A DNA stretch of 64,000 nucleotides from the NCBI RefSeq assembly GCF_014696315.1, contig NZ_JACJPX010000012.1, forward strand, positions 62,001 to 126,000, written 5' to 3'. The DNA is from Calothrix membranacea FACHB-236. GTDB lineage: Bacteria; Cyanobacteriota; Cyanobacteriia; Cyanobacteriales; Nostocaceae. Positions 1,498 through 48,471 of the stretch are shown here, piece by piece (positions within the stretch are counted from its first letter, which is position 1; each line of letters begins with the position of its first letter). The position numbers and the translations under genes were made by a program. The notes beneath the pieces were generated by a model. It was not told the DNA's origin. It worked only from the letters and a program-made list of their open reading frames with translations, and did not search any database.

Positions 1498-4400
1498 TTA
1501 GCGCCATTCGCCTTGGAGGGTGAAAGGTGCCCAGAAAAAAGGTGAGCGGTAATCGGGATTGCGCCACATTTCTACCTGTGCCGCCCGTAATGCCGCAGCA
1601 GGTTTTAAGCCCTGTTGCAACATTTTGCTATAAAACTTCTTCATTAATTCTGAAGTTCCTTGATCATCTACACTCCACAAACTCACCAACACTCTCGGGC
1701 TACCTGCATACATAAATCCTCTTGTCAAGCCAATTAATCCTTCTCCCTTGACTTCTTCACCCAAACCAGTTTCACAAGCACTGAGTACCACTAGTTCTGC
1801 TGGCAATTTCAGGTTGAAAATATCATGTAGACGCAAAAAGCCGTTTTGGGGTTTGCCAGTTTCATCAAATAGCGATAGTACAACTCCTGATAATTCTGGG
1901 TTTTGACTGTTGAGGATGCCATGAGTAGCAAAATGTATGATTCGGTATTGACTCAACTGAGCATCGGTAGCCACAGAACGGTTAGCGGCAAAGTCATAGG
2001 CTTGTTTGCGTTCTTTTGCAGGTACTAAAGACAGAATAGTATCGGCTTCTTGACGAGTAAAAGGTAAACGATCAAAGGCGATACTTGATTCTCTGGCTGA
2101 CCTGGATAATTGTTGTAAGTCTAAGTTTTGATTGCTGTTTTCTGGAGACGTTCCCCTCTTAACCCGCTCATCTTTGGGAGAGAAAATCGGGTCAGCAATC
2201 ACGGCTAATGCTTTTGGGGCAGGTTTTCGTCCAGCAGTTTCTTGTCTAAGAACAGCCAGAGTAGAGGCTGAGGGTAAAGTAATTATTTCATGGTTGACTG
2301 CTAATGGTTCATAGCTGCCATTTTTGGCACTGGGTGTGTTGAGAGCTGCAAAGGGAATATACTGCAAAGCCCCGTCAGCAACAATAACTAAGCGACGCTG
2401 TCCTAGTTGTTGAGCGACGGGTGCCAATATCAACTGCGTTAGGGGAGTAGCAGCTGCATCTGGGCTAGTTCTTTGTATGGGTGAGATTAAAACCTTGCGA
2501 AATTCTTGGACGGCGGCGGCAATTTCGGCGCGCTTAGGTAGTTCGTAACTGGTAATGCTATTTTTGGTGACCGCCCAAAGATAACTGCGTTCTTCGCCCA
2601 CAGCATACTCTAATAGTAGGGTGTTATCATCTAATATTTGTTGCTGAATCTGCTTGAGTGAAAGAGTTTGCGGTTGCGTCAAAGCTGCATAACGGGGGCT
2701 GGTGGATCTAATTTTGGCTTGCAGCTGCCGATACTGTTCCAGTAGTGCTTGTGTTTGCTTTTCTAGGTTTTGAATTTCAGTTTTGTTACCACTACTAGAT
2801 AATTTCAGCCAGCGTTTTTCTTGAGCATCCAGCTGTTTTTGCAAGCTACGTTCAGTTTCTAGTAATTTAGGATCTATACCTTCGCGAATGTCTGCGTTAG
2901 CTTCCGCTAGCAAATCCAAAAGGCTGCGGGCGCGGGCGCGTTCACTGGCTTGTAGGGCTAGGGCATCGTAACCTTTAGATGGTTGCTGCTTGTGCGATCG
3001 CATCAACAAATCGATGTAAAACTCATAATATTTTTGCACCGAGGCAAAGTAAGAAGTCCGCAAGTCTTGGCTGGTAACTCTGGTGCGGATATCTTCAACA
3101 ATTTTAATGGTTGATTCTATTTGCTTGCGGGCAGCTTCTAGGTTATTGCGATCGCGTTCGCTGACGGCGATATTATACAGAGTTTCGGCTTCACCTGTGC
3201 GATCGCCTAATTGTCGCAAAAGTTTGAGTTCTTGATTGTAATTATCTATTGCTTGCTGATACTGCTTTAAGGCATTGTAGACTTTGCCGAGATTACGGAG
3301 AGTATTAGCTTCACCACTGGGGACACCTAATAACCGAAATTTCGAGGTTGCTTGGTTGGAGAAATCGAGAGATTTTTGATAATCGCCAGCTGCTAAATAC
3401 ACCCTACCTAATAAACCTAAGGCAGAAGCTTCGCTGAAAGGACTTTGTTGTTTTTTCGCCAATGCTAGGGCTTGGTTAGCAGCATCTAAAGCCTGGGGAT
3501 AATCTTGGAGTGACTCATAAGCTCTAATTATCCCTGTGAGTGTCGCAAATTCCTGAAATAGCGCTCCTTGTTCCCGCCACAATTTGAGAGCCTGATTGTA
3601 ATATTCCAAAGCTTTTTGCGGCTGTTTTGCACTGCGAGAAACATTCCCAAGACTATCGAAGATTTGAGCTATCTGACTGCGATCGCCAATAGCGCGAAAT
3701 TTATCTAGTGCTTGGTTATAAGTATCAACACTTAACTTATCATCCCCCAAAGACTGATAGAGTTTAGCGATATAAGTTAGTGTAGCTGCTTCTCCTGGTA
3801 AGTCTTTGATCTGGCGCTGGAGAGTTAGCGCTTGGTTATAAAAATCCAAACTTTGCTGATAATTGCCAAAGGATGCGTAAATCCCACCAATATTGTTGAG
3901 TGTAAAAGCTTCCCGAGAGCGATTTTTTTGGGCACGTTGGAGAGTTAGCGCCTGGTTGAGTACGTCAAGGGCTTTTTGTTGTTGTCCTAATTCATCGTAA
4001 ACAAAGCTGATTTGAATTAAGACTTCAGCCTGTTCATTCGGTCTACCTGACTTTTGAAAGAGCGATCGCGCTTGGTTAAAATATTCCAGTGCTTTTTGAT
4101 AATCGTTAGCAACCGTATAGGTTGCACCCATACTCATATAAGTGATTGCTTGCTTGCTAGGGTCTGGTTGTGGTAACTGTTTTTGCAGTGCCAGCACCTG
4201 AGTTAAAGATTCCCTCGCTTTTTGATTGTCACCTAATGAGCTATAGAGTGTGGCTATCAATGTTAGAGTATCTGCTTGTCCTGCGATATTCTTGGTTGTC
4301 TGCTGAATTTCTAAAGCTTGATTTAAAGCTGTTAAAGCCTTTTGTGCTTCACCTAATTGGATATAAACTTGCCCAAGGGTTTCTAAGGTGTCAACTTGCC

Positions 4401-38487: not shown

Positions 38488-41400
38488 TCACCAGCCCCCA
38501 ATCCCCCGATATGTAATTGTAAATGCTGCCCAATAATAGGGATGATTGTACAATTTTTGTTCTGGGGAAAGTTTACTGCTTCTATACATTTGTGTTGCTA
38601 CATAAGTCCGGATTCTTAAATCTTCAGGATGGAGATTATTTAGTAAATCTTCATACCATTTTGTGAGTTCTCTAGCAGTTAGTTCTCTCAACCATGTTGT
38701 GACTTCAGCTAAGGTATTGACTGCTGATTTATCTGGCTGTAGTCGTCGGTAAAATTCTAAAACTACTAGGTCGTTAGCAACTGATTCTACAGTCCATAAA
38801 GTACTAACAACTTGCGATACTCCTACATTTAGAAAAGCATTGATTAAACTGACATACTCACTAGTAATAGGATGACTATTATTAGTTGTAATTTCGCAAG
38901 CTGATAGGTTAACTAGGTTGTAACTTACTAACGATGGTTGACTAATTTCTGCTAACGTGAGCTTATCTTCCCCAGCTAAAACTAATTCAGATTTTTGCGG
39001 TTCACTTAAGTTGTTAATGATATGACCTGTAAAGTGAAAAATATGGTAATTATCAATTAGGGCATTTCTAACGATGTGTTTGTCAGCTTGTACCCCTTGG
39101 ATGCGGTAGGAATTAGGAAACAGGTGATTAATAATTTCTGATTGCAGTTTGGCAAATTTTAATGGCGGATAATCTGTACTGTGGGGATGTTCAACGTTAA
39201 GAAGAACTTGATTGTGTTTATTGTCAATGATTTCGGGTTTTATGGATAATCCGATTTGAACACTAGGCAAATAGCTAATGGTGAAATTCGACTCTACATT
39301 TGATAAATATTCTGATGGAGTAGAGCCATCAAATAACGCATGAAGTGGCAATCTTTGCAAATCGCGGTGGGGAATTAAAATTAAATGGGTAATTCCTTCC
39401 AGTTCCTGGATCACAGTAGAAATATTCAGGATATGTTTTAGCTCTAAAAGCCTTTGTTCCATATCCACTCGCCAGGAATGGTTGCTTTGATTTTGCTTAT
39501 CTCCAGCGAGGCTACTATATTCTTGATATTGCTGATTCCAATCTTCTAGCCAATCTTCAAAAGCTAGTAAACGCCTGACTCCTTCTGGTAAAGGTATTTC
39601 TTGTAGACGTGATGGGCTTCTTCCTAAATTAAATACACCTGTATCTTGCATAGGTGTAAATATAAGGATGGGTGAAGGAGCCTGATCTTTGAGAACGAAG
39701 GTATGAAGAGAAGTTGGGCTAATATGCCAGTAAATAATTGCTGTTTGAGGGTTGAGTAGAGGCTGAACTTCAGAATAGTTGATTGATGCAATCTCTTCTT
39801 GCCAACCATCAAGTTGCCAAGTTAAACAAGCATTTTTAGCTTGTTCGGCAATTTCCCAAGCTTCTACTAAATCACCGTACTCTACTGCTAAATCAACTAT
39901 TAATTGTCGCAAGCCAGTAAATCTTAAAGCTAGCTGTTTTTTACTATCATCTGGACGTGTGGAATCAGTTAATAATTCTTTTAATAAATCGGTGCTGTAT
40001 TGCAGTAAGTCTTGTGCTTGTGCTGTTTGTCCCAAACCGACAAGAGTTTTAATTAGGGATTGCAACACTTCCAAATGTAATTGCGGAAAATCTTCGCTGG
40101 TTAAAGTTAATAGTGCCTGATTATACTCAGCTACAGCTTTTTGCCAAGGAGTGCGGCTAGCTACATTTTTCTTGCCGTAATCGTAATGAGTATTAGCGAT
40201 CGCTAAATGTAATCTGCCCCAACCTTCGGGGTGAGTGTCTGGGCGGACATATTTCAAGCCAGCTTCGTAGCTAGCTACTTTACCTTCATAGCCAGTTTCC
40301 TTTAACCCGGAATTGCTAGCTGTAATGTTCGTGAATAAACTTGAAAGTGCATCTGCATTGACTAAATTACCCGCAGCCGTTCCCCGTCCAATCCAGGCTT
40401 CCCAGTAGTCAAGTTTAATTTGTAAAGCGCTGTCATAGGAGGCGATCGCATCGGCATAGCGTCCTAAATAAAACAAGGCTACTGCTTGGTTATACCAGGC
40501 TAAGTGGAATTCTGGGTTAATGGCGATCGCTTTATTGTAGGAGTCGATAGCTTCTTCGCGTCTGCCTAAATTATCTAAAGCTACACCTCGGTTGTACCAA
40601 GCTAAGTAGAAATCGTTGTGAATGGAGAGGGCTTTATCCCAGGAGGCGATCGCTTCTGACCATTGTCTTAAATTAAACAGGACTACGCCGCGATCAATCC
40701 AGACTTCATAATAATCGGGGTCAATTTCTAAGGCCTTATCGTAAGACGCGATCGCTTCTTCATGTTGCTCGTTGATACCTAGTGCTATGCCTCGGTAATA
40801 CCAGTTTTCTGGGTCTTGGGGTTCCAAAGCTAAGGCTTGGTCATAACTTTCTATAGCTTCCCATAATAGCCCTAACTTCATTAATGCTAAACCCCGTCTT
40901 GCCCAAGCTTCCGAGAAATCGGGTTTGATGGCAATTACTCGCTCAAAGGAGACAATCGCATCATCAAATTGCCCTAATTCTCCGAGAATTCCACCCCTGT
41001 TATACCAAGCTTTGTAGTAATCAGGACGTAGTTCTATGGCTCTGTCATAGGAAGCGATCGCTTCATTAAAATGTTCTAAATGAAACAGTGTCAAACCCCG
41101 ATTAAACCAGTATTCATCAACATGGGGTTTCAGTTCTATCGCTGCATCATAAGAAGCGATCGCACCTAATAAATCACCTGTTCTCGCTTGTTGCAGACCT
41201 TGATAAAACCATGCTTGCGCCCGATCAATCGGTTGCTGGGGTACAATTTGCGAACTTTGGCGTTGAATGGCTAGTTCCGAAGCCAGTTCTTGGACTAAGG
41301 AAGTACTTTGATCCAATCTGACTAACAACTCATCCAAAGCTTGAGCGACGTTAGGCTCTAATTTAGCTAAGGATTTATCCCATGTTGGTGCTTCGGAGAT

Positions 41401-42279
41401 TTCGGCGGGTTTCTCCTCTGGTGGAGGAACAAGGTTAGTATCTTCCTCTGGCGGTGTGGGAGTAGTTACTTCTGCTTCTGGGGTTGCAATCTGTGGAGGT
41501 TCTTCCGGAAGCGGATTTAAGTCAGTAACTGGCGTTAAGATTTCCGTTTCTTCATCATCAGGCGGTTCTAAGAACAGATCGAATAAATTGGCGATCGCAT
41601 CATCTTCTGAAGGATTGAGGATAGCAGCTCTTGTTGCGGCATCTTCCCCTTCATATTCCCATAACACTTCCCCGATATTGCCTGTCCATGCTTCCTCCAC
41701 AGACATCATCTCGGGTATAGGAATTGTAGATTCGGTATCTTCCTCCTCATAATCCCATAACCGTTCGCCCAAGTTGCGGATCAATTCCTGGCCTGGAGTA
41801 TTGTGAAAATTATCTTCAGGGGTAGTGCTTTCCATTCCCAGATGACGATCAAAATCATCAATTTCTTCATAACTACTTGCGGAGTTACGCTTCAACAAGG
41901 TTAAACCAATGTCATAAGCAAGTTCTCCAATTCTGCCCACACCAAGTTCACCCAGCTGGATCATCCGTGCTGCTAACTGCTGGTTCGGTGCAGGTGAATT
42001 CAACAATCTTTCACCAAAATTCAGTAACCAATCTATCCAGCGTTCATCAGGAATCCGATGTTCCATCCGTTGCAGGTACTTCAGCGCCCACTGACGGCCT
42101 CTAGCTTGATGCACACCTTCTAGCAGCTGGGTAAACAACAGTTCTAGATCCGCATTGGTAAGCTCCGGTGGTGACTTTGTCACCCCGTATCCCCTTGCAG
42201 TAGTTCGAGAACCAGCTTTTTGATTACTAAAAGGAAGCTGGAACAAGTTTTTTAGCCATTCAATTAGACGCCTGAGCAT
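38488..42279 (-). CDS. TPR-CHAT protein with membrane-targeting N-terminus
   Basis: 1263 residues. Residues 1-14 (MLRRLIEWLKNLFQ) form an amphipathic helix, not a signal peptide. Residues 35-132 are a helical domain shared with the neighbouring 235-residue protein (LLEGVHQARG, LAARMIQLGELGVGRIGELAYDIG). Two WxYE motifs follow (W175, W207), then an acidic, Pro-rich linker to about 330. Nine 34-residue TPRs occupy about 355-660 (AWYNRG-x-x-L-x-x-LG...YDxAL). The C-terminal CHAT domain has HFTGH (His1086) and LSACEI (Cys1128), the catalytic dyad positions. The CHAT fold is caspase-like; the role here is unknown. Upstream partner at 42420-43127, 140 bp away, same strand. Confidence 0.88.
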   Translation of the reverse strand: MLRRLIEWLKNLFQLPFSNQKAGSRTTARGYGVTKSPPELTNADLELLFTQLLEGVHQARGRQWALKYLQRMEHRIPDERWIDWLLNFGERLLNSPAPNQQLAARMIQLGELGVGRIGELAYDIGLTLLKRNSASSYEEIDDFDRHLGMESTTPEDNFHNTPGQELIRNLGERLWDYEEEDTESTIPIPEMMSVEEAWTGNIGEVLWEYEGEDAATRAAILNPSEDDAIANLFDLFLEPPDDEETEILTPVTDLNPLPEEPPQIATPEAEVTTPTPPEEDTNLVPPPEEKPAEISEAPTWDKSLAKLEPNVAQALDELLVRLDQSTSLVQELASELAIQRQSSQIVPQQPIDRAQAWFYQGLQQARTGDLLGAIASYDAAIELKPHVDEYWFNRGLTLFHLEHFNEAIASYDRAIELRPDYYKAWYNRGGILGELGQFDDAIVSFERVIAIKPDFSEAWARRGLALMKLGLLWEAIESYDQALALEPQDPENWYYRGIALGINEQHEEAIASYDKALEIDPDYYEVWIDRGVVLFNLRQWSEAIASWDKALSIHNDFYLAWYNRGVALDNLGRREEAIDSYNKAIAINPEFHLAWYNQAVALFYLGRYADAIASYDSALQIKLDYWEAWIGRGTAAGNLVNADALSSLFTNITASNSGLKETGYEGKVASYEAGLKYVRPDTHPEGWGRLHLAIANTHYDYGKKNVASRTPWQKAVAEYNQALLTLTSEDFPQLHLEVLQSLIKTLVGLGQTAQAQDLLQYSTDLLKELLTDSTRPDDSKKQLALRFTGLRQLIVDLAVEYGDLVEAWEIAEQAKNACLTWQLDGWQEEIASINYSEVQPLLNPQTAIIYWHISPTSLHTFVLKDQAPSPILIFTPMQDTGVFNLGRSPSRLQEIPLPEGVRRLLAFEDWLEDWNQQYQEYSSLAGDKQNQSNHSWRVDMEQRLLELKHILNISTVIQELEGITHLILIPHRDLQRLPLHALFDGSTPSEYLSNVESNFTISYLPSVQIGLSIKPEIIDNKHNQVLLNVEHPHSTDYPPLKFAKLQSEIINHLFPNSYRIQGVQADKHIVRNALIDNYHIFHFTGHIINNLSEPQKSELVLAGEDKLTLAEISQPSLVSYNLVNLSACEITTNNSHPITSEYVSLINAFLNVGVSQVVSTLWTVESVANDLVVLEFYRRLQPDKSAVNTLAEVTTWLRELTARELTKWYEDLLNNLHPEDLRIRTYVATQMYRSSKLSPEQKLYNHPYYWAAFTITYRGIGGW

Positions 42280-42419: not shown

Positions 42420-43127
42420 TTATGATTCTGTTGGTTCTGTAGCTGCTTGTTCTGTAGCCGCTTGATTAGCAGCATGGTATTGATTAATCAATTCTTGGAT
42501 GATTACTTGTGGATCAGTGGTTTCCAGTCCCAGTTGTTGGGCAACTTGCTGGCATAAATTTTCATCTTGCTGCATCATCATAAACAACTGTTCTAAAGTA
42601 ACAGTTTCATAGCCTTCTGTTGAATTATTTTCTTCTGTATCTGTTGCGTTTGCTACCGAGTCCATTTCTTGGGGTTGTGATGTGCTAGTAGCATCTGGCC
42701 CTTCATATTCCCAAATAGGTTCGCCTTGATTGCGCGTCAACAATTGCATCCCGATATCATAGGCAACTTCTCCTACTTCACCAACGCCTAAATCACCCAA
42801 CTGCACTAACCGCGCTGCTAATTCATTATTGGGTGTAGGTGCGGCTAGTAATCTTTCGCCCAAGCGTCGCAACCACTCTACCCAACGTTCAGTAGGGATG
42901 CGATTTTCAATATTATGTAGCCACTTTTGTGCCCACGCTTGACCACGTGCTTGGTGTACTCCTTCCAACAATTCATTGAACAGAAATTCCAAATCGGTAT
43001 CGCTAAGTGTTGGTGGTGGTTGTTTGGGTACATCTGCACGCACTTGAGAGCGAGTTTTTTTACGCCCAAACAAGCCCTGAAACAAGTTTTTCAGCCATTG
43101 AACTAACCTCCTGAGCATTTGCTGCAT
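42420..43127 (-). CDS. Partner protein sharing the N-terminal domain of the adjacent CHAT protein
   Basis: 235 residues. MQQMLRRLVQWLKNLFQGLF is the same amphipathic helix; residues 42-133 match the CHAT protein's shared domain almost residue for residue (LLEGVHQARGQAWAQKWL, LAARLVQLGDLGVGEVGEVA). One WEYEGPD motif (W139) follows, then an acidic Gln/Glu/Thr-rich tail with LEQLFMMMQQDENLCQQVAQ. No protease or TPR part is present. The SD GGAGGAG lies 8 bp before the start. It is transcribed just ahead of the CHAT gene, so it may be a scaffold, inhibitor or membrane recruiter for it. Function not established. Confidence 0.8.
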   Translation of the reverse strand: MQQMLRRLVQWLKNLFQGLFGRKKTRSQVRADVPKQPPPTLSDTDLEFLFNELLEGVHQARGQAWAQKWLHNIENRIPTERWVEWLRRLGERLLAAPTPNNELAARLVQLGDLGVGEVGEVAYDIGMQLLTRNQGEPIWEYEGPDATSTSQPQEMDSVANATDTEENNSTEGYETVTLEQLFMMMQQDENLCQQVAQQLGLETTDPQVIIQELINQYHAANQAATEQAATEPTES

Positions 43128-43652
43128 GATTTTATCTCCTCCCCTTGGTGCCGCAAAGTCCTAGATGACGCAATTGTTCGCCTCTTGATTCTGGACTTTT
43201 TTTGAGTTTGATTACCCTAAGAATTGTAGCGATCGGTGTTCATTTAGTAACTGGTTCACTAGGCAAAATGGGGCTATGGTACATAACTATAACCATCCAC
43301 TTTGTGAATTAACTTGCAGTACTTATGACGGACTGGGCTTACCTGGCCTTGATCCGTCATCTTTTCAAACACCCCACTGGCGCACAGAGCTAAAAGCTGG
43401 AAAGTACTTTTAGGTGTGATGACTTTTTTAAAGTAGCCCTATTTGGGCTTAAGCTGGGTATCTATCCACTAAATTAATCTTTTGTTCAGATTTGCTGAGT
43501 GTTCGGTTGATAGCACTGTACTATAGCGTTAATCTGCAAAACTTTCTAGAAGTCATCTTTAAACGCCAAAGTTCCACCGCAGAGCAACCTATGGTTCGGT
43601 TCTGGTAGTCTACAATAGTAAAATCTTCAACTCTACTGGGTGCTATCATCTT
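43128..43652. other. Intergenic region upstream of dnaX with a possible structured RNA
   Basis: Contains a perfect 8-bp stem ATGACGGA / TCCGTCAT at 43325-43332 and 43353-43360. A second potential stem (ACACC / GGTGT) encloses AGCT-AAA-AGCT at about 43370-43425. A third hairpin AGCCC-TATTT-GGGCT is at about 43435-43450. I do not recognise a known riboswitch or small RNA. The dnaX promoter must also lie here. Confidence 0.35.
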
Positions 43653-46600
43653 ATGTCTTACGAACCCCTGCACCATAAGTATCGCCCAAAGAGTTTTGCG
43701 GAATTAGTCGGACAAGAGGCGATCGCTACTACCCTCACGAATGCGATCAACTCAGCTAAAATCGCCCCCGCCTATTTGTTCACTGGCCCTAGAGGTACAG
43801 GCAAAACTTCCAGCGCGCGCATTCTTGCCAAATCCCTCAATTGTCTAGCAAGTGGTAAGCCCACTGCTCAACCTTGCGGTAAGTGTGATGTCTGTCAGGG
43901 AATTACTCAAGGTTACTCTTTGGATGTGATTGAAATCGACGCAGCCAGCAATACTGGTGTCGATAATATCCGAGAAATTATTGAAAAAGCCCAGTTTGCT
44001 CCTGTCCAGTGTCGCTACAAGGTGTACGTCATCGACGAATGTCTAACTGGGGATTCTTTAGTCTTAACTGATGAAGGACTCTTCAGAATTGACGACCCTA
44101 CTATTCAAGGCAAAAAAGTTTTAAGTTACAACGAATTATCAGGTAATTGGGAATTTAAGCCCGTCGTACGGTGGTTAGACCAAGGAAAACGTCAAACTTT
44201 GGTTATTAAGACAACTCATGGCGAAATTAGATGTACTGGCAATCATTTGATTAGGACAGATCGAGGATGGATACCAGCAAGGGACGTAAAAGAAGGAGTG
44301 AAGATACTATCGCCTGTGAATGTGGATGTGGTAGCCTCATTTACAAATTTGGCACGGATGGACGCATCCGTCGATTTGCCTCAGGACACCAATTTAAAGG
44401 TAATACCTACGGGCAAAAATTCTATAACTTGCAATCTATTCTGGAACAAGCTAAGTTACTCCGTCCCTTCTGTCGGTGCGGTTGTGGAGAAAAACTCGAT
44501 GTCCCCAACTTTTTACAAACAAAAGGTAGAGAAATTAAGAGCATACAATCTAACTGGGAAAGACATCCATTTAAAAAAGGACACGGAATTTGGGAAAAGC
44601 GCACAGAAAATTTCGTTTCCAGTGCAGAAGTTCTGCCAACAGAAAAACTTGGACTTATCTACGGAACATTACTTGGGGATTGTTCCATCACTTATCCCAA
44701 CAAATATAGTAGATTCCCGCGATTGGCTTGGACACACGCGGAAAATCAACAAGAATGGTCTAATTACAAAGCGTCTCGCCTTCCAGAACTGCGTCCAAAG
44801 CAGAGACTTACATCGAACAAAGGATACGGAAGCAGCTCAATTACCTGCAATACAGCTTGCCATCCCCAACTCCAAGAAATTTTTGAGATCGTTAAACCAA
44901 ATGGAGATGAAAAAATCGTCTCTATGTCGTGGCTTAATAGAATTTCTCCAGAAGGACTTGCTTGGTGGTACATGGATGATGGCTCACTCAGCCTTAGCCC
45001 TCAAGGAAGCCCACAAATCCAGTTACATACAGAAGGATTTTCCGCCCAAGAAAATCAAATCATTGCCAGTTGGCTTACAGCAATGGGATACCCAGCAGCA
45101 ACAAAGTTTTACACCAGAAGTAGTACAGGTAAGAAATATCACTACATCTGGATGGGTGCCAGCACCAGTAGAAAATGGCTGGCCGCTATCCAGCAGTATT
45201 CCATCCCGACAATGGAATACAAGTTTGGCAACGGTAGAATCTGTCCACCTCGCTGGGGTTGAGCCAGTTTATGACATTGAAGTCGAAGATAATCACAACT
45301 TTGTAGCTAATGGGCTTTTGGTGCATAATTGCCATATGCTCAGTACACAGGCATTCAATGCGTTATTAAAGACACTCGAAGAACCACCTAAACATGTAGT
45401 ATTCGTCTTGGCAACAACCGACCCCCAGCGAGTATTGCCGACAATTATCTCTCGCTGTCAAAGGTTCGATTTTAGACGTATTAACTTAGAGGCGATGGTC
45501 AAGCATTTAAGCGCGATCGCCCAGAAAGAAAATATTAATATTTCTCTAGATGCTGTAACTTTGGTTGCCCAAATTGCTCAGGGGGGATTGCGAGATGCCG
45601 AAAGTCTCCTCGACCAATTAGCTCTATTATCTGGTGAAGTTACGCCGGATAGAGTGTGGGATTTAGTTGGTTCTGTGAGCGAACGGGACTTAGTAATATT
45701 GTTAAGTGCGATCGCTCAGGATAATGCCGAAGCAGTTTTAGATTGCACTCGTAAAATTTTGGATCGTGGTCGAGAACCATTAACTATTCTGCAAAATCTC
45801 GCTGCTTCTTACCGTGATTTACTGATCGCCAAGACTGCACCCAAGCGTCAAGATTTAGTTGCTTGTACTCAGCAAACCTGGCAAGCATTAATTGCATTGG
45901 CTCAGGAGCTAAACACCAGTACAATTTTGGCGGGACAGAAAAATTTACGCGAAGCAGAAGTACAAATCAAAAACACTACCCAACCGCGTTTGTGGTTAGA
46001 GGTGACATTGCTGGGATTGTTACCTAGTGCCAACATTCCAGTGCAAGTTGCTAGCGTAGCACCCAGTAGAGTCAGCACAGCACTACCCAGTTATTCTCCC
46101 ACATCTCCCCCACCTTCATCTCCCCCCATTTCCCCAACCCCACAGCCAGCAAATAACACCTCTGCTGCTCAAGCAGTTTCATTACCTCAACGAGAAAATA
46201 TTCCTGTTCCTCAACAATCTAGTCAGGTATCATCACCACCAACAGCAAATATTTCTGTTCCTCAACCGAATATTCAGGAACCGCCATTAAGCGTACCTGT
46301 ACAACCAGCATCTTCCGGTGCAGATGTTGCGGAAGTAATAGAAACAACACAGTCTGACTTAACTCAAATTTGGCAGCAAGTACTTGGTTGTTTATTAAAT
46401 CCTGGTAGTCAGGCTTTATTCAAGCAACATGGGCAATTGTTAAGTATCAATGATGGTTTAGCTCAAGTAGGAATGCCACCAGCGCTAGTAAAGTTTGCTC
46501 AACCAAAAACGGTGGAAGTTGAAGCGGCATTTGAGCGAGTTTACCAACAGAAGGTAAAAGTTACTTGGGTTTCCAACCAATCTAAGAATGGGGCGATGAA

Positions 46601-46988
46601 TGGGGGTAGTGTAGCTTCACCCAAAGATTCTACTCGTGTTCAGCAGCCACCTGCGCCCAGATACAATAATCAAAACACACCAGTAGCTCCGATACCGCAA
46701 CCAGAAACCCCGAAAGCGCCACCACTGCCAGCATCACCACCAATACCAACACCAGCAAGAAACGAGCCAGCTACAACAGCTAGAGGTGGTGTCCAAACTT
46801 TGCCGCCACCAACCCCTACACCTGCACCACCCCCTAGCGAATGGGAAACGGATGAAGTGGCGATCGCAGCACAGCGATTAGCAGAATTCTTTCAAGGACA
46901 AATAATCCGCTTGTCAGATGATGCTTTAGATTTTGGCGGTACTATGGCTGATTCTGGCTTGATGGATGAAGCGGATCTTGATGATTGA
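43653..46988 (+). CDS. dnaX: DNA polymerase III gamma/tau subunit with an intein
   Basis: 1111 codons as precursor. Residues 1-129 are the N-terminal extein: LVGQEAIATTL, Walker A TGPRGTGKTSSARILA, zinc cysteines in CGKCDVC, and VYVIDE at the DExx box. The intein is residues 130-559. The C-extein resumes CHMLSTQAFNALLKTLEEPP with sensor 1, ISRCQRFDFRR, and domain III (about 560-830). A Pro/Gln-rich linker and a C-terminal tau-like region follow. Spliced product about 681 residues. DnaX is the clamp loader ATPase that couples loading to the replicase. The intein sits at the Walker B Asp-Glu, so no splicing means no functional protein. No separate gamma/tau frameshift signal was identified. Confidence 0.97.
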   Translation: MSYEPLHHKYRPKSFAELVGQEAIATTLTNAINSAKIAPAYLFTGPRGTGKTSSARILAKSLNCLASGKPTAQPCGKCDVCQGITQGYSLDVIEIDAASNTGVDNIREIIEKAQFAPVQCRYKVYVIDECLTGDSLVLTDEGLFRIDDPTIQGKKVLSYNELSGNWEFKPVVRWLDQGKRQTLVIKTTHGEIRCTGNHLIRTDRGWIPARDVKEGVKILSPVNVDVVASFTNLARMDASVDLPQDTNLKVIPTGKNSITCNLFWNKLSYSVPSVGAVVEKNSMSPTFYKQKVEKLRAYNLTGKDIHLKKDTEFGKSAQKISFPVQKFCQQKNLDLSTEHYLGIVPSLIPTNIVDSRDWLGHTRKINKNGLITKRLAFQNCVQSRDLHRTKDTEAAQLPAIQLAIPNSKKFLRSLNQMEMKKSSLCRGLIEFLQKDLLGGTWMMAHSALALKEAHKSSYIQKDFPPKKIKSLPVGLQQWDTQQQQSFTPEVVQVRNITTSGWVPAPVENGWPLSSSIPSRQWNTSLATVESVHLAGVEPVYDIEVEDNHNFVANGLLVHNCHMLSTQAFNALLKTLEEPPKHVVFVLATTDPQRVLPTIISRCQRFDFRRINLEAMVKHLSAIAQKENINISLDAVTLVAQIAQGGLRDAESLLDQLALLSGEVTPDRVWDLVGSVSERDLVILLSAIAQDNAEAVLDCTRKILDRGREPLTILQNLAASYRDLLIAKTAPKRQDLVACTQQTWQALIALAQELNTSTILAGQKNLREAEVQIKNTTQPRLWLEVTLLGLLPSANIPVQVASVAPSRVSTALPSYSPTSPPPSSPPISPTPQPANNTSAAQAVSLPQRENIPVPQQSSQVSSPPTANISVPQPNIQEPPLSVPVQPASSGADVAEVIETTQSDLTQIWQQVLGCLLNPGSQALFKQHGQLLSINDGLAQVGMPPALVKFAQPKTVEVEAAFERVYQQKVKVTWVSNQSKNGAMNGGSVASPKDSTRVQQPPAPRYNNQNTPVAPIPQPETPKAPPLPASPPIPTPARNEPATTARGGVQTLPPPTPTPAPPPSEWETDEVAIAAQRLAEFFQGQIIRLSDDALDFGGTMADSGLMDEADLDD
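44040..45329 (+). other. DnaX intein (430 codons), splicing domain blocks A, B, F, G
   Basis: Begins at Cys1 in CLTGDSLVLTDEGLF (block A). Block B contains CTGNHLI with its TxxH His and GWIPARDVKEG. Block F/G is VYDIEVEDNHNFVANGLLVHN ending in His-Asn, followed by extein Cys (+1) in CHMLS. All catalytic residues for class 1 splicing are present. Between blocks B and F (about 325 codons) the frame stays open but shows no LAGLIDADG, HNH or other endonuclease motif and no recognisable domain. That DNA instead carries a complete endonuclease gene in another frame (44267-45262). A DnaX intein at this site is known from Synechocystis sp. PCC 6803. Confidence 0.93.
44267..45262 (+). CDS. LAGLIDADG homing endonuclease encoded inside the intein in an alternative frame
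   Basis: 331 residues from ATG 44267. The codon phase differs from dnaX (start mod 3 is 2 against 0). Two N-terminal Cys clusters, CECGCG (17-22) and CRCGCG (69-74), are each followed by basic/His segments (RRFASGHQFKG and HPFKKGHG), possibly zinc modules. Two LAGLIDADG helices: LGLIYGTLLGD (codons 44648-44680, residues 128-138) and GLAWWYMDDGS (44954-44986, residues 230-240), about 100 residues apart as in single-chain LAGLIDADG enzymes; Asp of LLGD and MDDG would bind metal. An AGGA lies 10 bp before the ATG. It stops at 45262, just inside block F. It would cut intein-free dnaX and spread the intein. Confidence 0.85.
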   Translation: MDTSKGRKRRSEDTIACECGCGSLIYKFGTDGRIRRFASGHQFKGNTYGQKFYNLQSILEQAKLLRPFCRCGCGEKLDVPNFLQTKGREIKSIQSNWERHPFKKGHGIWEKRTENFVSSAEVLPTEKLGLIYGTLLGDCSITYPNKYSRFPRLAWTHAENQQEWSNYKASRLPELRPKQRLTSNKGYGSSSITCNTACHPQLQEIFEIVKPNGDEKIVSMSWLNRISPEGLAWWYMDDGSLSLSPQGSPQIQLHTEGFSAQENQIIASWLTAMGYPAATKFYTRSSTGKKYHYIWMGASTSRKWLAAIQQYSIPTMEYKFGNGRICPPRWG

Positions 46989-47067
46989 GGAAGCAGAGGG
47001 AGCAGGGGAAAGGGAAAGAAATCACACATAACCAATGCCCGATCCCCTATGCCCCATGCCCCATTTC

Positions 47068-48471
47068 TTATTCCACCCCTGTATGCACAGTTTTGACCCA
47101 TTTCAGGCGTTTGGGACGGAATGACATCCGGGCAGTGGTACTGCTCATAACTACAAACCAGTGGAACATATATAAGGTGCCACGTAGGGTTTGCAGCAGT
47201 AACACTAGATATGTAGAAAGCTGGAATTTTTGTCCTTGATGTATCCGCCGTAAACCAGTGAACATGCCGATTACTGAGAGAGTTACAGACAAACCAGTAA
47301 TTGGGCCGAAGATGGGGGGACGATGACGGGCGATCGCCATTAATAAATCTGGTATCGCTGCTGTCGGTAAAATATACATAATGAGCATAAAGCTCAATAA
47401 ATCCCAGGTTTTGCGGGTTCCTAGGCGATTTTTGAGCAGCAAATCCCAGTAATCTAAATAGCGCTGATATCCACCTTCTGCCCAACGGTTGCGCTGATGC
47501 CAAAGTGCGATCGCATTGGTCACACCTTCTTCTTCTACGGCTGGCGAGAAGACACACTCAATATCCCAATTGTCCAAATGTAGGCGCAGCGTCAAGTCTA
47601 AATCGTCGGTGATGGTTTCTTCATTCCAACCCCCACAACTTTCTAAGGCTGTGCGCCGGACAAATTGACCGTTACCGCGCAGTTCGCCAATCCCACCCAG
47701 CGCTGTCCGCTGTTGCTGAAAATAGGTATCAACGGCCATTTCTGCCATTTGACCTTTAGTCCAAAAATTCTCTTTGGCATTGGCGATCGCTTTTCGCACC
47801 TGCACCGCCCCTACCTGTTCTCTTTGAAATAAAGGTACTACCTGGTGCAACAACTCTGGTGAGACTTGAGCATCAGCATCAAACACGGCGATGATTTCGC
47901 CTTTTGTTAGTGGTAACACTTGATTTAATGCTCCAGACTTACCACCACTTGCTTGTGCTGAACGTCGGAAAGTTTTTAGTTGTTTATATTCTTTGGCCAG
48001 TTCTGTTAATAACTGGGGTGTGCGATCGCTGCTGTTATCGTCAATGACCCATAGTTCGTACTTGCCATCTGGATAATCCAAACTGCAAAGACTCTTGACT
48101 AATCTGCCAATTACTGCTTCCTCATTCTTCGCTGCTACCAATATAGATACAGAAGGTAATTCTCCCTCTATCTTTTTGGGGTGACGGCGCGGTCGGGTAA
48201 ATACCACCTCCAGAGCGTGAATACCTAGAATAGTGGTCAGTCCCAGTACGAACAAAGAACCCCAGGAAACTAAATGCAGCGCGATCGTGCTACTCCAAAC
48301 TATAGTCAAAACTAGAGCTGCTTTGCGTCTGCGTCCTTGAAACCGGAATGGTAGAAACAAAGGGTCTGTCTCTACAATTGACTCCTCGGTTGCTGAAAGG
48401 TCAGACAACAGAGAGTTGAGCGGAGCCAGCTCGTTGCTAGAATCGTCTTCGGGCCAGAAATTCGCTGGCAT
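47068..48471 (-). CDS. Family 2 processive-type membrane glycosyltransferase
   Basis: 467 residues. Residues about 55-85 hold two hydrophobic segments, then the GT2 core: ILVAAKNEEAVIGRLVKSL, WVIDDNSSDRTP, AVFDADAQVS (DxD), ITDDLDLTLRL (base) and QRNRWAEGGYQRYL (QxxRW). Four C-terminal membrane helices follow. The motif set is that of cellulose-synthase/N-acetylglucosaminyl-transferase-like enzymes that make and export polysaccharide or glycolipids. Sugar unknown. Convergent with dnaX, with only 79 bp between. Confidence 0.9.
   Translation of the reverse strand: MPANFWPEDDSSNELAPLNSLLSDLSATEESIVETDPLFLPFRFQGRRRKAALVLTIVWSSTIALHLVSWGSLFVLGLTTILGIHALEVVFTRPRRHPKKIEGELPSVSILVAAKNEEAVIGRLVKSLCSLDYPDGKYELWVIDDNSSDRTPQLLTELAKEYKQLKTFRRSAQASGGKSGALNQVLPLTKGEIIAVFDADAQVSPELLHQVVPLFQREQVGAVQVRKAIANAKENFWTKGQMAEMAVDTYFQQQRTALGGIGELRGNGQFVRRTALESCGGWNEETITDDLDLTLRLHLDNWDIECVFSPAVEEEGVTNAIALWHQRNRWAEGGYQRYLDYWDLLLKNRLGTRKTWDLLSFMLIMYILPTAAIPDLLMAIARHRPPIFGPITGLSVTLSVIGMFTGLRRIHQGQKFQLSTYLVLLLQTLRGTLYMFHWFVVMSSTTARMSFRPKRLKWVKTVHTGVE

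Follow-up and report, generated by a model that had tools for sequence, protein, structure and literature searches.

We examined a 64,000-nt window (the whole stretch analysed; all positions below refer to it) of the Calothrix membranacea FACHB-236 genome, on contig NZ_JACJPX010000012.1 (assembly GCF_014696315.1), in which an intein within the dnaX gene shares its DNA with a homing endonuclease gene in another reading frame. All features of this locus lie on the forward strand. The dnaX gene was found to be a single open reading frame (ORF) at 43653-46988, encoding 1111 residues and uninterrupted through the intein. Comparison of the ORF and the insertion site placed the N-extein (129 codons, ending in VYVIDE) at 43653-44039 and the C-extein, which begins with CHML, at 45330-46985. 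Between them lay a stop-free intein of 430 codons (44040-45329) inserted at DE^CHML, a point that we take to be the Walker B motif. In the dnaX frame, the intein matched the Intein_splicing family (PF14890, E-value 5.2e-13, above the Pfam cut-off), and Pfam returned no endonuclease family in this frame at E-values up to 1. The residues that define an intein were all present, including Cys1, the T..H pair of block B, the C-terminal HN and a Cys at position +1 that opens the C-extein, and C1, T66, H69, H429 and N430 were invariant in a 30-row alignment. The alignment, together with a structural model of the intein in the dnaX frame, delimited an N-terminal splicing segment of residues 1-95 (44040-44324; presumably blocks A and B) and a C-terminal splicing segment of residues 390-430 (45207-45329; presumably blocks F and G), both modelled with high confidence, and a stop-free linker of residues 96-389 (44325-45206), which is predicted to be unstructured, with model confidence below 50.

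The second ORF, at 44267-45262, ran from ATG to TGA one base behind the dnaX frame and encoded 331 residues, spanning the whole intein loop from just past block B to the first bases of block F and overlapping both structured edges. Its start ATG (44267-44269) was formed by the third base of the dnaX-frame Gly76 codon and the TG of Trp77, and its TGA (45260-45262) stood where block F begins. The predicted product matched the LAGLIDADG_2 homing endonuclease family (PF03161, E-value 2.1e-21, 77 bits against a cut-off of 25) and carried two LAGLIDADG helices, LGLIYGTLLGD (44648-44680) and GLAWWYMDDGS (44954-44986), each with an acidic residue; D138 of the first and D237 and D238 of the second were invariant in alignments of 20 and 32 rows (A1 and A2). 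A sequence search of the PDB recovered I-WcaI (6x1j, E-value 0.0019) and chains of I-SceI (best E-value 0.0043), with GLAWWYMDDGS aligned opposite LAYWFMDDG of an I-SceI chain. An AlphaFold2 model of the protein reached a predicted local distance difference test score of 86, and its best fold match in the PDB was I-SceI (1r7m, E-value 2.4e-11, target template-modelling score 0.75). Upstream of the helices, the alignments revealed two CxCGCG cysteine clusters at residues 17-22 (44315-44332) and 69-74 (44471-44488), which are possible metal sites. The number of copies of this type of module seemed to vary among the endonuclease N-termini of related loci (L016, L017, L022, L082 and L085), which suggests that the loop may gain or lose entire modules without closing the dnaX frame. 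Two of these, the 522-codon inteins of Laspinema (L082 and L085), had extra repeats in the N-terminal region of the endonuclease and CTG in place of the start ATG.

We then compared the locus with its relatives. Among the matches listed, the endonuclease was matched in 36 of 388 genomes drawn from the class, and the N-terminal splicing block of the intein (N block) was matched in 75 of 376 genomes of another draw, 48 of them with E-values below 1e-30. A scan of GTDB contigs with the 20-row alignment, from which the best 80 of 90 relatives were taken, yielded 78 distinct loci. From all loci together we collected 95 complete dnaX inteins, 81 of them distinct, and every one of these 81 was free of stops in the dnaX frame. 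Wherever a dnaX locus had an endonuclease match, the endonuclease lay in the same phase (98 of 98 loci, counting duplicates shared between collections). Exactly 430 codons were found in 45 of the 81 inteins, and the endonuclease frame was stop-free in 37 of these 45. More broadly, an endonuclease-frame ORF of at least 270 codons was present in 53 of the 81, the remainder being interrupted or deleted. A sequencing or assembly frameshift was ruled out by the single phase in 98/98 loci and the absence of dnaX-frame stops in 81/81 inteins. Nor was this an ordinary bifunctional intein with its endonuclease in frame, the endonuclease lying one base off the dnaX frame in all 98 matched loci. The continuous host ORF likewise excluded a split intein or fractured gene at dnaX, and a group I intron was not indicated, with no Rfam match at gathering scores in 43000-47500 and the host frame open in 81/81 inteins.

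Codon usage in the endonuclease gene bore a clear mark of the overlap. Of the 12,247 endonuclease codons examined, none was an NTA or NTG that, read with the following base, creates a stop in the dnaX frame, compared with 883 of 13,438 in the exteins, and Leu was written as CTT in 319 of 1012 cases in the endonuclease against 111 of 1738 in the exteins. When the 37 endonucleases were redrawn synonymously according to extein codon usage, a mean of 12.7 dnaX-frame stops appeared (lowest 3 in 7400 draws), whereas none was observed. A milder control, in which each gene's own synonymous codons were shuffled and which thus already carries the stop-avoiding codon bias, gave a mean of 5.6 stops and reached zero in 0.08% of 3700 shuffles. 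In the converse redraw, with the dnaX-frame protein held, the endonuclease frame gained 20.4 stops (lowest 6). A chance open frame was ruled out by these redraws, and by those of the viral loci described below.

Substitution patterns separated the roles of the two frames. Across the overlap, substitutions were most frequent at the third position of endonuclease codons in nine of nine identity bins and least frequent at the second position in eight of nine, the bin above 98% being slightly different. For pairs at 60-65% endonuclease identity (bin 0.60-0.65), the endonuclease frame was 63% identical and the dnaX-frame linker 35%. By the Nei-Gojobori method, which is biased by frame overlap, the ratio of nonsynonymous to synonymous divergence (dN/dS) was, in three distance bins comprising 46, 8 and 200 of the 666 pairs, 0.22, 0.19 and 0.18 for the endonuclease frame and 1.22, 1.08 and 1.15 for the dnaX frame over the same stretch, or about 1.1 for the linker; the N block of the intein gave 0.12 and 0.15 in the two bins that were not saturated. 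These results indicated that only the endonuclease frame behaves as a conserved protein under purifying selection, and together with the codon data they point to a dnaX frame held to openness and an endonuclease frame held as protein. We propose that the dnaX frame has stayed open over such a length because a stop there would destroy DnaX. A sequence-only reading of this stretch had described about 1 kb of dual coding, in which the dnaX frame supplies a splicing domain without an endonuclease and the alternative frame a complete LAGLIDADG enzyme. Both frames being open beyond chance, and the family match, motifs and I-SceI-like modelled fold of the ORF, bear this out, as does the retention of the alternative frame, in one phase, across cyanobacterial families. 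Its further proposal, that the DNA is constrained twice, held in that both frames are constrained, but they are so unequally, the endonuclease as a protein and the linker mainly as a stop-free stretch.

Evidence on mobility came from empty sites and from silent divergence. Among same-family genomes without an endonuclease match, all 14 that were examined had an uninterrupted VYVIDE-CHML site. In one genome, a dnaX-like paralog (locus L240, G084:C8, ORF 1597-3591 of the reverse complement) carried this intein too, inserted at the equivalent DE^CH position and with an interrupted endonuclease frame. Among 655 pairs whose exteins had diverged by more than 0.2 at four-fold sites, four-fold divergence was below 0.1 in the endonuclease of 22 pairs and in the N block of 8. 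In ten pairs chosen from the low-divergence end, the intein had diverged significantly less at silent sites than the exteins (Fisher p 2.7e-4 to 5.6e-12). The N block showed 0 of 25 silent differences both in the pair L054-L058, which relies on the N-extein given an unreliable C-extein comparison (63.7% mismatches without gaps), and in the pair L065-L066.

The start codon was more conserved than its surroundings. The ATG was kept in 45/45 inteins of 430 codons, and Gly76, whose third base supplies its A, was encoded by GGA in 44 of them; the remaining intein had Ala (GCA) and still kept the ATG. Three other conserved Gly codons were GGA in only 23-27 of the 45. A check with a strict pattern, applicable to 72 of the 81 inteins, found ATG in 49 of 51 long inteins (CTG in 2), 9 of 11 of middle length (GTG in 2) and 10 of 10 short ones, the last presumably being recent losers of the endonuclease gene. 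These comparisons indicated that the start ATG is conserved beyond what dnaX requires, and we favour internal initiation at this ATG as the route by which the endonuclease would be expressed.

We consider it probable that this element is a mobile intein with an out-of-frame gene for its homing endonuclease, the splicing domain being translated as part of dnaX, the endonuclease produced from its own ATG, and homing directed into the DE^CH site. Translation of dnaX would yield a precursor with a Hint-type splicing domain bearing a floppy loop of about 290 residues, and this domain would excise itself and rejoin DnaX. From the same mRNA, initiation at the internal ATG just past block B would release a free I-SceI-like LAGLIDADG enzyme of 331 residues with N-terminal Cys-rich modules. 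This enzyme would cut intein-free dnaX at DE^CH, and repair would copy the intein in. Selection would meanwhile preserve the endonuclease as a protein and keep the dnaX frame without stops.

Several observations weigh against this interpretation. Stops interrupted the endonuclease frame in 8 of the 45 full-size copies and 28 of the 81 inteins had no endonuclease-frame ORF of 270 codons, which indicates that the endonuclease was lost in many lineages; the inteins were moreover collected by endonuclease similarity, among the matches listed, and mini-inteins without an endonuclease are under-sampled. No strong Shine-Dalgarno sequence preceded the start in the 45 inteins, 24 of which had a weak AGGA at -14. 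Synonymous divergence (dS) in the closest bin was lower for the endonuclease (0.145) than for the N block (0.40), so some constraint on linker residues is possible, and four-fold sites over a wider set of 175 pairs showed no endonuclease slowdown relative to the N block. The evidence for recent transfer is limited because the ten pairs were picked for low endonuclease divergence, part of which may reflect constraint, since endonuclease silent sites are dnaX second positions. Two comparison pairs not chosen in this way showed no such excess of intein similarity (p 0.13 and 0.30). Finally, the endonuclease tree mostly tracked host groups: quick trees of the endonuclease and of the exteins (49 loci), both with long branches, shared several large groups. 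We read this as an old resident element with local spread and frequent loss.

The host-tracking tree and the two pairs without excess similarity also fit an endonuclease that no longer homes and is retained for another role, such as a regulator or a domesticated nuclease, and the motif Asp residues kept over deep divergence agree with such a role. We regard this as unlikely, as the endonuclease is often lost while dnaX remains open, a paralog carries a copy at the matching site, and some pairs combine little silent divergence in the intein with more in the exteins, which fits a mobile element. Less likely still is a genuine endonuclease produced by programmed -1 frameshifting from the dnaX frame instead of internal initiation. 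Such frameshifting is used by dnaX genes elsewhere, and the endonuclease frame lies one base behind dnaX. The one slippery-heptamer pattern tried was not conserved, its commonest position being shared by 4 of 45 inteins, the ATG is kept in all 45, and viral relatives also occur in the other phase, so that no single frameshift fits them all. A functional linker protein, with the endonuclease-like frame as a passive relic, is very improbable. In its favour, the linker frame is uninterrupted in 81 inteins and silent sites of the endonuclease change somewhat slowly between close pairs, but the linker retains 35% identity where the endonuclease frame retains 63%, evolves at a dN/dS of about 1.1 against 0.2, is predicted to be unstructured and has lost large parts in many inteins.

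The out-of-frame arrangement of the dnaX intein extended beyond cyanobacteria. Among viral and Bacillaceae relatives, recovered by endonuclease similarity and not forming a census, 12 of 102 distinct rows had an alternative forward frame open across the endonuclease match. The phase was that of dnaX in RadD/ResIII-type helicase inteins (L032, from Xanthomonas phage FoX3, of which L133 is a copy; L116, L117 and L131); the inteins of L032, L116 and L117 follow DE, and that of L117 precedes CHRI. The other phase was found in terminases (L118, L121, L146, L136 and L137) and in Hel308-like helicases (L156, L158 and L161). A curated intein cut-off (PF14890 or TIGR01443) was passed by 9 of the 12, with weaker intein matches only in L118, L146 and L158. 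Host-frame stops were absent from all 12 loci against 5.6 to 32.0 expected from synonymous redraws, none of the 300 draws for any locus being free of stops; in the reverse redraw, stop-free draws occurred at 0.0067 for L118 and L156. No alternative frame was open in 18 relatives with an in-frame endonuclease or in 26 others, a comparison between groups sorted by that very feature, which shows only the absence of grading between them. The in-frame endonuclease relatives were L035, L036 and L120, with others in frame by ORF only.

Three viral relatives were split. In L033, L034 and L115, helicase parts and intein halves flanked the endonuclease gene, and the C-terminal parts of L033 and L034 started with CHMV and CQHV. 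In L033 (Escherichia phage AN_ECEAS) and L034 (Pectobacterium phage Ymer), both halves retained the dnaX-type phase, as would be expected had a once continuous, entangled intein broken apart. A quick endonuclease tree placed the nine dnaX copies in one clade (99) inside a 17-row group (94) that also held phage helicase forms, split forms and one unclassified row; a tree-based count of changes to the out-of-frame state (5) is not pressed here. This placement suggests that dnaX acquired the element from phage helicases, or shared it with them, via the common DE^CH coding site. The presence of two different phases suggests that the out-of-frame arrangement has arisen or been re-phased at least twice. 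We incline, with moderate confidence, to the view that inteins with out-of-frame endonucleases are a distinct and recurrent mobile class, spanning cyanobacterial dnaX, viral RadD-like and Hel308-like helicases and terminases, in which a selfish enzyme is entangled with an essential gene yet separately expressed; a stop in the linker would turn such an element into a split intein, so that split inteins may naturally originate from this class, or this class from them.

Two further observations concern the same genome. A second intein-like ORF of 1143 codons (L001, G000:C154:112570-113967, reverse strand) matched LAGLIDADG_3 (E-value 1.2e-17) and, weakly, the intein N block. Within the window, a TPR-CHAT protein (38488-42279) and an adjoining 235-residue protein (42420-43127), both on the reverse strand, had related N-terminal regions (46% over 197 columns, E-value 2e-51).

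Among known systems, ordinary bifunctional inteins such as PI-SceI carry a LAGLIDADG endonuclease domain in frame within the intein protein. Like them, the dnaX element occupies a conserved site in an essential gene and unites a Hint-type splicing domain with a LAGLIDADG enzyme placed in the loop of that domain; it differs in that the DNA of the loop encodes the endonuclease in a reading frame of its own. I-SceI and I-WcaI, its best sequence and fold matches (1r7m and 6x1j), share the two LAGLIDADG helices with Asp; unlike the dnaX enzyme they are intron-borne, identity was 17-20% in the five best fold matches, and the Cys-rich N-terminal region lies outside the matched range. Fractured genes, reportedly described by Dassa in 2009, are said to have a split intein whose two halves are separated by a free-standing endonuclease gene. 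The viral relatives L033, L034 and L115 are similar, with helicase parts and intein halves around an endonuclease gene, whereas at dnaX the endonuclease gene overlaps an unbroken host frame.

The sequence-only reading knew of no described case of this arrangement. We likewise found no report of an intein with an out-of-frame endonuclease in literature searched by title, start of abstract or passages, a search that left key older intein papers outside its reach, but the viral helicase and terminase loci share the arrangement and a precedent exists outside inteins. In the passages retrieved from PMC11855218, the ShiLan element is a stop-free insert in a phage methylase gene that encodes an HNH enzyme in another frame and has no splicing domain; the authors detected splicing neither as an intein nor as an intron. 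Applejack gp54/gp55 (PMC12613952) is a further case of an out-of-frame endonuclease insert. ShiLan is the nearest published precedent we found, the common features being an out-of-frame endonuclease and an insert without host-frame stops. It differs in its HNH enzyme and lack of splicing, whereas the dnaX case has a LAGLIDADG enzyme within an intein splicing domain, in an essential cellular gene and in many bacterial families. A ShiLan-type insertion was thus rejected for dnaX, where the endonuclease family is LAGLIDADG and an intein splicing domain is present. The same gene carries an intein in Synechocystis, where the Ssp DnaX mini-intein is a laboratory tool with a 150-residue form whose parts trans-splice (PMC3443213). 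Splicing of this form implies, judging from its length, that the middle region is dispensable. In the retrieved part of PMC3443213, the word "endonuclease" appears only in two reference titles. The sequence-only reading suggested that the Synechocystis intein may share the arrangement; none of the loci listed by the GTDB scan is titled Synechocystis, and if the arrangement occurs there it may have been noted earlier.

To our knowledge, bacteria seldom make use of both frames over a long stretch of DNA. Here, many cyanobacterial families share about 1 kb of dual coding, and the intein that contains it has a relative in Synechocystis that serves as a laboratory tool. Genes of this kind would escape annotation programs that do not allow overlaps. 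The locus offers a natural model for entangling a gene with an essential one, and it places the two jobs of an intein on two frames, a route between fused, entangled and split inteins.
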